In this document: positions 27,397 to 30,530 of the stretch, one piece after another | Numbering within the stretch: position 1 is the first letter of the stretch | Layout of the letters: each line of letters begins with the position of its first letter | IMG/VR virus record: IMGVR_UViG_3300025168_000279 | Span: 1 to 35,554 of that record | Source: a virus | Length of the DNA stretch: 35,554 nucleotides | Reading direction: 5' to 3' (one strand) | Notes under the pieces: generated by a model | What the model saw: only the letters and a program-made list of their open reading frames with translations | Told to the model about the DNA's origin: nothing | Databases searched by the model: none | Made by a program: the position numbers and the translations under genes

Positions 27397-28206
27397 TTAT
27401 TTTAAAAGTGAAATGTGATTACGGTTAGTGTGCTGAAATGACCAAGGTGGCAAAGACAGCATTACTTTTTCGCTTGAGTACGCATGAAAGTGATTTTCTT
27501 TAACACATTCGTTGTGTATTTCTATAGCTCTTTGTGCTGATGCCCAGCCTTCCTTTTCTGACATAGCGTCAAGCTCGTAAATTGCACAAGCATACGGCGC
27601 TGACTTCTCAATCACTACAAAAATAAAATGGTCAACAGCTTTCCCTGAAGCTTGTGCGTATCCGTATTTGTAAAAGGCATGCTGTTGATGGTACCCGTAT
27701 TTAGCGATTGAATGTGCAAAACCATCTGGGCTCGCATCAATTGAGGTCTTGAGATCGATGATAGTATTACTTTGGGCAGCGTCTACTTTGCATTTACACT
27801 GAGTGCCATCGACCTCAAAGAACGCTGCTTTCTCGTACACGGTACCTTTTTGTGTTAAAATTGTGGCAGCAGTTGCGTTGCGATATACACTGTCGCGCAT
27901 TTGCATGCATTGCAGGTAATCCGCACTTGTTAAGATCATTTTACCGCTGTCTTCTGCGTCTTTCTTGGCTTCCGTCCATGCCTTACCGCGCCTATTCTCT
28001 GGCCCCTGCACAATTAAATTTGATGATAATTCTGGTTGCAAGACAGCCAAATGCACGGCACTTCCTAAAGTCATAGCATCAGTCTTATCTATTCCGATCT
28101 GTGCATGCGCTGGTGTTTTATTAATCAGTTGCCACAGGTAAGAGTTATTTAAGGCATCTTCAGCAAAGTATTCCTCATCCGATAGATCATAAGTGCCTGT
28201 CTTCAT
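27397..28206 (-). CDS. RecE/PD-(D/E)xK-type exonuclease
   Basis: This is a 269-residue protein; its ATG at 28206 overlaps the previous stop (TAATG). The RecB-like nuclease motifs are visible: GSAVH with H52 near the N-terminus, KCKVD with D142, then NTIIDLKTS with D151 and K153, and YGYHQQHAFYKYG (~170-182). The family digests duplex ends 5' to 3' and usually partners with an annealing protein. No recognisable RecT or Erf gene is next to it; the adjacent unknown gene at 26635 could fill that role. Confidence 0.82.
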   Translation of the reverse strand: MKTGTYDLSDEEYFAEDALNNSYLWQLINKTPAHAQIGIDKTDAMTLGSAVHLAVLQPELSSNLIVQGPENRRGKAWTEAKKDAEDSGKMILTSADYLQCMQMRDSVYRNATAATILTQKGTVYEKAAFFEVDGTQCKCKVDAAQSNTIIDLKTSIDASPDGFAHSIAKYGYHQQHAFYKYGYAQASGKAVDHFIFVVIEKSAPYACAIYELDAMSEKEGWASAQRAIEIHNECVKENHFHAYSSEKVMLSLPPWSFQHTNRNHISLLK

Positions 28207-28478
28207 TATGCCACCTCACTTAATAAAGACGCATACCCTGCAACGTCTATCTGACTATCAGTGTGTGTAGGATCATTAATTAATCTAGCAATTTTTATCT
28301 GTAACATGATAAATATTACGTCCGTGCTAGAAATAAAATGCTCGTCTTTTAATTTATCTTTTAATACAGCGTTTATTAAGTCTGCTGCTTTTTGAAAATT
28401 ATCGCAAGATTTGCCATACGTTTTTTCTCGTTGATTTACTATTTCCATAGCTTTATTCAAAACGTCTTCTTTACTCAT
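28206..28478 (-). CDS. DUF6378-like protein
   Basis: This is a 90-residue helical protein. The pattern QREKTYGKSCDNFQKAADL ... ISSTDVIFIMLQIKIARL ... DPTHTDSQIDVAGYASLL matches DUF6378, a small family common in tailed phages. Its function is unknown. It overlaps the resolvase gene by 8 nt (ATGAGTAA) and the exonuclease start. Confidence 0.72.
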   Translation of the reverse strand: MSKEDVLNKAMEIVNQREKTYGKSCDNFQKAADLINAVLKDKLKDEHFISSTDVIFIMLQIKIARLINDPTHTDSQIDVAGYASLLSEVA

Positions 28479-28914
28479 TGTTTTTCCCCCTTGCCCAATG
28501 GGCTATTAACGCCGCTTCTGCGCGGCCATCATCTTTTTTACGTTTGAATTGTTCAGCATTTTTTGGATACAACCGTGTGGCCATTGATCTCGATAAGTCT
28601 TTATCTTTACCTAGCCCCAAATCTTTTTTCCACCTCGCAGGAGATACCCTTGTATAAGGAATTTCCAAGGTTGCTAATACACCTAAAAGAATTCCATATC
28701 CCATACCAAAATTGAATGCTGATTGCCTGCCCATGCCAAAACTATTCAAAGATTCTGTGTACAAATGATCAGGGCGAAACTCTTTAAAAATATTAGCGAC
28801 AGCAGACCCATTTATTTCCTTACCAAAGATAGGAATGTCTTCTATATACAATGTGCCGTCTGTGTAAAGTAGGGCAATTGCACCTGTCTTCCCTGGATCT
28901 ATGGCCGCAATCAT
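28471..28914 (-). CDS. RuvC-like Holliday junction resolvase
   Basis: This is a 147-residue protein with RNase H-fold motifs: AIDPGKTGAIALL with D6, DHLYTES with E54, and KKDDGRAEAALIAHW with D128 and D129. These are the four acidic residues expected for the metal centre. It would resolve branched replication and recombination intermediates before packaging. ATG 28914 overlaps the upstream stop as ATGA. Confidence 0.87.
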   Translation of the reverse strand: MIAAIDPGKTGAIALLYTDGTLYIEDIPIFGKEINGSAVANIFKEFRPDHLYTESLNSFGMGRQSAFNFGMGYGILLGVLATLEIPYTRVSPARWKKDLGLGKDKDLSRSMATRLYPKNAEQFKRKKDDGRAEAALIAHWARGKNNE

Positions 28915-29036
28915 TTCTTAACCTTCTTTTTTTTAAATATTTTATTATAATTATCTTTGTATTTCTTAGTTGGAATTGGAATTGCCCACCATCTTTTTCG
29001 CCGAGTGTCAGGCAATTTGTGAAAAATATCAGTCAT
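28911..29036 (-). CDS. 41-residue basic protein
   Basis: ATG 29036 overlaps the methyltransferase stop as ATGACTGA, and its own TGA overlaps the resolvase start as ATGA. The product MTDIFHKLPDTRRKRWWAIP is followed by a Lys/Tyr-rich tail ending KKKKVKK. The tight coupling at both ends is the main evidence that it is a gene. It is strongly basic with a Trp-Trp pair, which would suit nucleic-acid binding; the function is unknown. Confidence 0.66.
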   Translation of the reverse strand: MTDIFHKLPDTRRKRWWAIPIPTKKYKDNYNKIFKKKKVKK

Positions 29037-30321
29037 TGTTATTATCCCAAGTTTTTAATACAGCTTGAAATATCTCTGATGCCACTTGAGGCACAATCGC
29101 ATTACCCAGCGCCTTTAATCTCTTGGCTCTGTCCTTCTGACCTGTAGTCACTCTTGGGACTCCTCGTTCCCAATCTGCGTCCACCCAAGTGGATAACCCA
29201 TTAAAAGTTCCACCCAATCCGCTGAAAGATGTCCCCTCAGTTTGTCCTGATTGTCCTGATCCTTTTCTTTTTGGTAAACCTGCACTGGTAATTTGCCATC
29301 GTCCCTGCTTCCTTGACCCCTGTCCGTTTGGTTTGGAGTGTCTTTCCAACCCCGCGCCATTGGTGTCGGCCACATCTTCTCCGCATGATTTACTGCGTCC
29401 CTCAGTTTCACGCCCCACCTCACGCCTTCCTTGTTCTTCCGACTGAATTTTCCGTTTTCGTAATCCACGTTTTGAACTATTCCCCCCTCTACATCCGCTG
29501 CCCTTGGTGTCGGCCACATTTGTATCGCCTGACGCAGTGAAACCATCAAATTCACGCCCTCTCTCTTCTTCTTTTCTGCCCTTTTGATCCATTTTTCCTG
29601 TGGTTCCGCTGGGTTTGCGTCTCTTGCCCCTGGTGTCGGCCACATTTTCGGATGCACCACTTGCTCTCGTAAATTCCCCAATCTCATTCTGCCTTTCCTG
29701 TTTTTCTGATTGGTTGAACAATTCTCCGCTAACCTCGCTGGAAGATGATCCATAGTGTTGGGTGTTGCCCAAGTTAGCCAACCGCTGTTCATGCTGGGAG
29801 CTAGTTGATTCGCCTTCGCTGTTGGCGTATGCAACAATCCAGACTCGCTGTCTGCGGTGGGGGGCATTTTGGGAAATAGCTCCAAGTACGCACGGCCACG
29901 CATTGTAACCTTCATTTTCCAGATCAAGTAACACCGAGTCGAGGCCCATGCTGATGTGACCAACAACATTTTCAAAAACGCATACATCGGGTCTTGTGTG
30001 CTTAACGATTTCAATAATCCACGGCCAGATGTGCCTGTCATCTGCCTCGCCTTTGCGCTTCCCAGCTTGGGAGAATGGTTGGCAAGGATATCCGGCTGTG
30101 AGGATTGAGACTTTGCCGAAGTCTTTGGGGAAGGTTTTGACATCATCGTAGATTGGCGTGTCAGGCCAATGTTTGTTGAGGACTCGCTGGCAGAACTCGT
30201 CTTGTTCGCAGAAGGCAACGGTGCGAACATTTCGATCTGTTCTGCGTCCCGCGTCTGCGAGTGCGAGTGCGAATCCTCCGATTCCAGAGCAGAGGTCAAG
30301 GTGGGTAATTTCTTCATTCAC
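29029..30321 (-). CDS. dcm: DNA cytosine-5 methyltransferase
   Basis: The start is GTG at 30321, 5 nt after GGGGAG and overlapping the previous stop (TAGTG). The protein has 430 residues. Conserved motifs: I DLCSGIGGF (9-17), IV GYPCQPFS with catalytic C80, VI FENV (116-119), VIII QNAPHRRQRVW (151-161) and X RLKALGNAIVPQ (401-412). The region between VIII and X (~165-390), where a target-recognition domain is expected, is unusually polar and low in hydrophobics. It holds three copies of VADT(R/K/N)G, at ~227, 269 and 317. A second long frame runs over 90% of the gene. It probably protects phage DNA from host restriction; the target is unknown. Confidence 0.88.
   Translation of the reverse strand: MNEEITHLDLCSGIGGFALALADAGRRTDRNVRTVAFCEQDEFCQRVLNKHWPDTPIYDDVKTFPKDFGKVSILTAGYPCQPFSQAGKRKGEADDRHIWPWIIEIVKHTRPDVCVFENVVGHISMGLDSVLLDLENEGYNAWPCVLGAISQNAPHRRQRVWIVAYANSEGESTSSQHEQRLANLGNTQHYGSSSSEVSGELFNQSEKQERQNEIGEFTRASGASENVADTRGKRRKPSGTTGKMDQKGRKEEERGREFDGFTASGDTNVADTKGSGCRGGNSSKRGLRKRKIQSEEQGRREVGRETEGRSKSCGEDVADTNGAGLERHSKPNGQGSRKQGRWQITSAGLPKRKGSGQSGQTEGTSFSGLGGTFNGLSTWVDADWERGVPRVTTGQKDRAKRLKALGNAIVPQVASEIFQAVLKTWDNNND
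29148..30317 (-). CDS. overprinted frame: WPTP-repeat protein of a phage methyltransferase-associated family
   Basis: ATG 30317 lies 4 nt after the GTG of the methyltransferase and shares its GGGGAG ribosome site. The frame has 389 codons. Residues ~110-389 look like a real protein: SAWASTRCYLIWKMKVTMRG, LFPKMPPTADSESGLLHTPT, three MWPTPxA repeats (~225, 267, 315) and the end LSADWVELLMGYPLGWT. I recognise this pattern from phage proteins annotated as methyltransferase parts, where it ends LNPxxVEWLMGxPxGWT. Residues 1-109 are Ser/Thr/Pro-rich and lie over the catalytic half of the methyltransferase. It may be a separate protein, or a C-terminus reached by frameshift. Existence as protein is not proven. 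Confidence 0.6.
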   Translation of the reverse strand: MKKLPTLTSALESEDSHSHSQTRDAEQIEMFAPLPSANKTSSASESSTNIGLTRQSTMMSKPSPKTSAKSQSSQPDILANHSPKLGSAKARQMTGTSGRGLLKSLSTQDPMYAFLKMLLVTSAWASTRCYLIWKMKVTMRGRAYLELFPKMPPTADSESGLLHTPTAKANQLAPSMNSGWLTWATPNTMDHLPARLAENCSTNQKNRKGRMRLGNLREQVVHPKMWPTPGARDANPAEPQEKWIKRAEKKKREGVNLMVSLRQAIQMWPTPRAADVEGGIVQNVDYENGKFSRKNKEGVRWGVKLRDAVNHAEKMWPTPMARGWKDTPNQTDRGQGSRDDGKLPVQVYQKEKDQDNQDKLRGHLSADWVELLMGYPLGWTQIGNEESQE

Positions 30322-30530
30322 TATTGCTCCCCTGCACCTTTGACGCGGCGGTCTAAATCTTCCTGTATATCATTAAGAATAGTTGGCAGATACGATTCCA
30401 GCGCCTTTTCAATGACACCCGTCATAGTAATGGGGCGGTGCCTCGACACTAATTTTAAGTCTTCAAGTAAATCGGCTCGAAGCCGTATGGAGAAAGGACT
30501 GCGGGTAAATTTCATTTTATCTTTCAACAT
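30321..30530 (-). CDS. ribbon-helix-helix regulator
   Basis: This encodes 69 residues from ATG 30530, or 64 from ATG 30515; neither start has a strong ribosome site. SPFSIRLRADLLEDLKLVSR, then ITMTGVIEKALESYL, is the strand-helix-helix pattern of Arc/MetJ-type DNA-binding proteins. It is the first gene of the DNA-metabolism operon, next to the divergent promoter region, so it is likely to regulate that operon or the opposite plus-strand block. Its stop overlaps the methyltransferase start by one base. Confidence 0.7.
   Translation of the reverse strand: MLKDKMKFTRSPFSIRLRADLLEDLKLVSRHRPITMTGVIEKALESYLPTILNDIQEDLDRRVKGAGEQ

Follow-up and report, generated by a model that had tools for sequence, protein, structure and literature searches.

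A tailed-phage cytosine-5 DNA methyltransferase gene overprinted by a nested +1 frame with shuffled cassettes

The analysed DNA, here called the window, is the whole stretch of 35,554 nt forming positions 1 to 35,554 of IMG/VR record IMGVR_UViG_3300025168_000279, a tailed-phage genome fragment in which terminase and tail genes are present. Two long overlapping frames lie on its minus strand at 29148-30317, as the original prediction had stated. The outer frame, alpha (29029..30321, GTG start, 430 aa, frame 0), encodes the catalytic subunit of an m5C methyltransferase, and the frame nested in it at +1, beta (29148..30317), has an ATG start and 389 aa. A RuvC-like resolvase gene (28471-28914) and an exonuclease VIII-like gene (27397-28206) are neighbours of the methyltransferase on the same strand. 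An Arc-like/ribbon-helix-helix (RHH) gene (30321-30530, minus strand) stands upstream of alpha, and its TAG stop overlaps the alpha GTG; from this arrangement, translational coupling of the RHH gene to alpha is plausible.

Alpha was matched by the Pfam profile PF00145 (E 2e-39) and the PHROG profile phrog_363 (E 3e-67), and motifs I, IV (PCQ), VI (ENV), VIII and X identified it as a cytosine-5 DNA methyltransferase. The AF2 model of alpha combined an M.HhaI-like core, for which M.HhaI and M.HaeIII were the best Foldseek matches, with a C-terminal helix; residues 185-394 (about 210 residues) were without structure. Alpha runs from motifs I-VIII through this long unstructured stretch to motif X (RLKALGNAIVPQVAS, 29086..29130, minus strand), which is located beyond the beta stop at 29148, and third-position variation of the alpha codons past that stop was ordinary. 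This frame had been credited with all key motifs; the alignment of the window and its relatives showed I-VIII and X, but no motif IX in the alpha polypeptide.

Beta consists of an N-terminal extension, an overlap with the alpha core, five cassettes and a motif IX-like end, all on the minus strand. The extension (about 71 aa, 30105..30317) is confined to the clade of the window, has no clear amino-acid constraint and shows an alpha-like codon-position pattern (0.11/0.07/0.28); in other clades +1 stops occur at this place and beta starts near alpha codon 50-60. The next segment (DILANHSPKLGSAKAR...SAWASTRCYLIWK, 29835..30104) covers alpha motifs IV-VIII, and alpha dominates selection there. Cassette 1 (LHTPTAKANQLAPSMNSGWLT, 29772..29834) belongs to a family of 13 members, cassette 2 (WATPNTMDHLP...NLREQV, 29643..29771) to one whose 52 members occupy 31 neighbour contexts and cassette 4 (WPTPRAADVEGG...KLRDAVNHAEKM, 29373..29516) to one whose 20 members occupy 15. 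Cassette 3 (WPTPGARDANPAEPQEKW...SLRQAIQM, 29517..29642) was 58% identical to a cassette of locus L122, and for cassette 5 (WPTPMARGWKDTPNQ..., with a linker, 29244..29372) no close family member was found among the cassettes of 194 loci. The last segment (GHLSADWVELLMGYPLGWTQI, 29172..29243) overlaps the alpha segment WERGVPRVTTGQKDRAKRLK before motif X and was assigned as candidate motif IX by its consensus, LxPxWVEWLMGYPxGW, and by its position relative to the cassettes and motif X, which is that seen in the in-frame relatives. Pfam, NCBIfam and PDB searches failed to recognise it, and nothing useful was obtained when beta or fragments of motif IX/X were the queries. The profile phrog_1008 matched beta of the window (E 7e-29), making it a PHROG 1008 member by profile, while the AF2 model of beta was poor (mean pLDDT 50) and unusable. 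The SAWAS..LIWK, WPTP and LMGYPLGW patterns described earlier in this frame are real and common to the relatives. When codons were shuffled with the alpha protein and its codons kept, the open +1 run had a mean of 155 and a maximum of 373 codons, and 0 of 20,000 trials reached 389. The length of beta is improbable by chance, as had been supposed, but the probability of 1e-8 originally attached to it presumes independent codons.

A 15-nt repeat, TGGTGTCGGCCACAT, marks the cassette junctions on the plus strand at 29361..29375, 29505..29519 and 29631..29645. The three copies are exact and spaced 144 and 126 nt apart, in agreement with the first description, and the expectation for the window was 0.06. 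The coding strand of the repeat, ATG TGG CCG ACA CCA, encodes MWPTP in the beta frame, and the stretch of alpha over it is VADT. Exact junction repeats of at least 15 nt were detected in 18 of 161 multi-cassette loci including the window (17 nt). A total of 542 beta cassettes was collected from 194 loci, with 0-6 per gene and five in the window; their length was 38.7 ± 9.4 aa, and they open with the motif (W/L/F/Y)(P/A)TP. The cassette families occur in varied order, the largest in 31 neighbour contexts. Taking cassettes at least 75% identical as similar, 150 of 703 similar pairs connected loci with cores less than 50% identical, and therefore cassettes move between genes. The longest array seen was that of Arthrobacter phage Colucci gp83 (L208:775-2037), a 421-aa 'hypothetical protein' adjoining a separate methylase gene, in which at least seven LPTP-type cassettes are followed by a motif IX-like segment and motif X.

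Phage records, viral contigs and bacterial genomes all yielded relatives when searched with either frame; the viral scan gave at least 447 confirmed ones, the genome scan 270 and the plasmid search distant core matches only. Using profiles for both parts, beta was located at exactly +1 inside an open alpha in 122/126 and 77/80 loci, together 199/206, a frequency biased by the finding of most loci via the beta motif and with which the loci found via alpha agree. In nearly all whole-gene loci of the first set the +1 frame was open from about alpha codon 52-55 to about 15-55 codons before the alpha stop, and the +2 frame contained about 8-40 stops. The exceptions were L036, which is truncated, L037, where +1 is open beyond the alpha stop, and L003 together with the clade of the window, where it is open from near the alpha start. 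No earlier description of such an overlap in phages was found in the open-access literature.

Database annotation of these loci varies. The nested frame is already annotated in Paenibacillus phage Diva as 'g49 internal gene'; elsewhere one of the two frames is picked arbitrarily, as in L041, L044 and L043, with beta alone annotated in Stenotrophomonas phage SOVA965 and Komagataeibacter phage phiKX1 and alpha alone in Salmonella phage S9-5. Several loci are irregular. In marine phage KM23-C739 (L005, KT997847, 16128-16370) alpha is apparently frameshifted near codon 50 and beta is still open. Five loci of equal match score and length (L147-L151) were present on one Roseovarius MAG chromosome (OX638333.1), possibly as several related prophages. 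Behind a complete nested pair, L057:1150-2600 contains a partial tandem duplication, in which the beta frame is uninterrupted through a second WPTP cassette and a motif IX-like segment, with stops in the alpha frame. In L203:2750-3800 motif X is read in continuation of the beta frame and is also overlapped, in a third frame, by a second motif IX-like segment; this locus looks like the product of an indel or rearrangement, or an assembly error. In L036:2450-3900 apparent frameshifts distribute a core, LPTP cassettes, a motif IX-like segment and motif X over three frames, and the locus is taken to be a decayed or mis-sequenced monomeric relative.

The overlap is resolved in some natural relatives. 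In L122 and L131 alpha terminates immediately past motif VIII, with 22 and 8 stops, respectively, following in its frame; the cassettes of beta, its motif IX-like segment and motif X nevertheless share one frame. Split versions were also found in actinophages (Peaches gp77/gp76, Colucci 82/83 and Zakhe101 7/6). Homologues fused directly after motif VIII, which had been proposed as a check, do exist: in mycobacteriophage Estave1 gp75 the core, LPTP cassettes, an EWMMGWPAGW segment and motif X form one polypeptide, the cassettes follow motif VIII in frame, and the +1 frame has 9 stops. Profile comparison with hhalign aligned the cassettes and motif IX-like segment of beta with those of the in-frame relatives (96.8%, E 2e-10), and this homology supports the earlier suggestion that the second frame plays a role in target specificity. 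In five canonical phage methyltransferases with an in-frame motif IX-like sequence (RKLTPRECWRLQGFP or RRLTPRECFRLQGFP), the +1 frame contained 9-23 stops and its longest open run was 38-165 codons; in KpV2811, which has no motif IX, it was open for 306 of 331 codons. The same methyltransferase with a stop-filled second frame was absent within the subfamily, and only the canonical enzymes with motif IX in frame fit that description.

In the window, a Shine-Dalgarno-like GGGGAG (30327..30332, minus strand) precedes the alpha GTG (30321) by 5 nt and the beta ATG (30317) by 9 nt, and is predicted to serve as a shared ribosome signal. The likely beta start is this ATG, four bases past the alpha GTG; it is still uncertain, as the first ~71 residues are without amino-acid constraint, and no Shine-Dalgarno was found ahead of the internal ATG at 30146. 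A GTG and an ATG behind one GGGGAG at the RHH stop would permit coupled initiation of both frames. Across the 194 loci, a Shine-Dalgarno-like sequence with a start within alpha codons 40-75 was present in +1 in 151, compared with 8 and 57 in the other frames. These starts bear on the suggestion, made at the outset, of a frameshift-selectable C-terminus, by which ribosomes translating alpha would move to +1 after motif VIII and add an alternative C-terminus with the recognition domain. The product of such a programmed shift would have the order of the monomers (core, cassettes, motif IX), but it would lack motif X, no conserved slippery heptamer was found (present in 2/194 loci only), and beta possesses, in most relatives, a Shine-Dalgarno and start of its own; its N-terminus over motifs IV-VIII is more conserved than a shift product would require. 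A programmed frameshift is very improbable on this evidence.

Beta might also be a separate protein, such as a restriction partner or inhibitor, which is overprinted on the methyltransferase gene and stands outside the enzyme. The finding that beta has no Pfam match above the cut-off is compatible with this. However, Estave1 gp75 contains a like module joined covalently to the enzyme between its motifs VIII and X, and phrog_1008 matches residues 203-366 of this protein, the C-terminal half (E 9e-50), so that one profile spans both proteins; beta is always accompanied by an alpha-type core at the same locus, except in one contig-edge fragment among the 206 loci; and alpha lacks motif IX where beta is present. 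A role outside the methyltransferase is thus very improbable, even more so than a frameshift.

Selection was analysed region by region in 42 independent pairs of 78-99% identity, with each difference classed by its effect on each frame; a non-overlap control gave a pseudo-beta omega of 0.64. Ahead of the overlap, the codon-position rates of alpha (0.072/0.033/0.267) were like those of a normal gene. Over the core motifs IV-VIII omega was 0.20 for alpha and 0.43 for beta. Over the WPTP cassettes omega was 0.91 (0.78-1.08) for alpha and 0.24 (0.18-0.31) for beta, and the third codon position of alpha was the slowest there. In the motif IX/X segment omega was 0.28 for beta and 0.40 for alpha. Between the window and locus L008, the codon-position values were 0.27/0.12/0.22 within the overlap and 0.19/0.16/0.51 past the beta stop. 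Alpha-frame stops across the cassettes numbered 0 in 24,010 codons versus 755 expected from beta-synonymous shuffles; the loci were preselected for an open alpha, and the census shows that an open alpha is the rule.

The locus is overprinted as originally proposed, since nearly all relatives keep +1 open and selection acts on it in its own right: purifying selection acts in both frames at the core and the IX/X segment, and on beta alone over the cassettes. The original statement that both frames are constrained at once is correct for the core and the IX/X segment, but full dual constraint across the entire overlap was rejected for the cassettes, where the alpha sequence is free and only its openness is kept. 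Since alpha is neutral and beta selected there, the VADTxG repeats of alpha are a by-product of WPTP. A lack of selection in the second frame, which would have spoken against overprinting, does not describe the cassettes (0.24 versus 0.64 in the control), and the core signal is weak. That beta is only a shadow frame, encoding no protein and showing motifs that mirror conserved alpha motifs via the +1 shift, is hardly credible: conserved alpha stretches do mirror conserved beta ones (VADT/WPTP, VGRVADGVPNRVD/WVEWLMGFPIGWT) and the beta signal is weak in the core overlap, but the cassettes are alpha-neutral and beta-selected, they are kept in L122 and L131 despite a closed alpha, like modules occur in in-frame monomers, and no codon shuffle reproduced the open run.

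The reading that we prefer, with a probability of roughly 0.87, places this overprinted m5C methyltransferase with the two-polypeptide enzymes of the M.EcoHK31I kind; beta would carry motif IX and shuffled recognition cassettes of about 39 residues. Alpha and beta would be the two polypeptides of one enzyme, made from the same DNA in two frames and initiated separately, and would assemble into a complex. Alpha would supply the catalytic part, with motifs I-VIII, the ~210 unstructured residues and motif X, and beta the recognition cassettes, each opening with (W/L)(P/A)TP, plus the motif IX-like segment; alpha is kept stop-free over the cassettes so as to reach motif X. Judging from homology and sequence patterns, beta very probably carries interchangeable DNA-target-recognition pieces, and the cassettes may be target recognition domains with differing targets. 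A more specific form of this, for which we consider the chances about even, is that the +1 frame is a modular array of up to six swappable ~39-residue cassettes, each adding one methylation target and exchanged at short junctions like the 15-nt WPTP/VADT repeat, with alpha serving there as a stop-free passive linker. The enzyme is predicted to be active and multispecific, and would shield phage DNA against host restriction. The open frames, the region-wise selection, the module homology and the cassette shuffling are direct observations.

Outside the small viruses, a long overlap between two genes of the same strand is frequently put down to annotation noise. The beta polypeptide of M.EcoHK31I is said to be read in another frame inside the alpha gene as well, and is reportedly 176 aa long; with 389 aa, beta of the window is about twice this size, has five cassettes and occurs in a phage. 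M.EcoHK31I (YGGCCR) is likened to the window by its described layout, in which the large subunit contains motifs I-VIII and X and the small subunit motif IX alone (PMC3404938). It differs in that its predicted recognition domain was assigned to the large subunit (PMC3404938), whereas the cassettes of the window are selected in beta. M.AquI (CYCGRG) consists of a catalytic subunit and a subunit with the recognition region and motifs IX and X (PMC3404938). This plan is shared by L122, L131, Peaches gp77/gp76 and Colucci 82/83; in contrast, motif X of the window is in alpha and beta is wholly nested in alpha.

The recognition domains of multispecific phage methyltransferases comprise roughly 40 residues, and the cassettes here average 38.7 aa. 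To our knowledge, no recognition-domain array in an overprinted frame is known. The SPbeta, rho11s, phi3T and H2 enzymes have several modules like the window, but as single polypeptides in one frame and with motif IX in frame, whereas the array of the window is overprinted; a phi3T/SPbeta hybrid methyltransferase copy had 18 stops in +1. Multispecific m5C methyltransferases with arrayed recognition domains have been described in Bacillus temperate phages, where they act against many restriction systems (PMC12707154). Estave1 gp75 shares with the window the LPTP cassettes, the EWMMGxPxGW segment and the phrog_1008 match, but all in one frame. The PHROG 1008 label, 'DNA methyltransferase', is silent on the second coding frame which most of the members found overlap.

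In conclusion, the basic layout has a precedent in one studied enzyme; its widespread and modular form is new, as are the region-resolved selection, the location of the putative recognition cassettes in beta instead of alpha and the shuffling of these cassettes. Hundreds of tailed-phage contigs and bacterial genomes contain the overlap, selection shows which frame is decisive in each region, and natural relatives resolve the overlap as in-frame monomers or split genes. Should the cassettes prove to be recognition domains, the recognition domain predicted in the literature for the large subunit of M.EcoHK31I-type enzymes would be called into question, and the family would be a combinatorial device against restriction, with its specificity encoded in a frame often left out by annotation.
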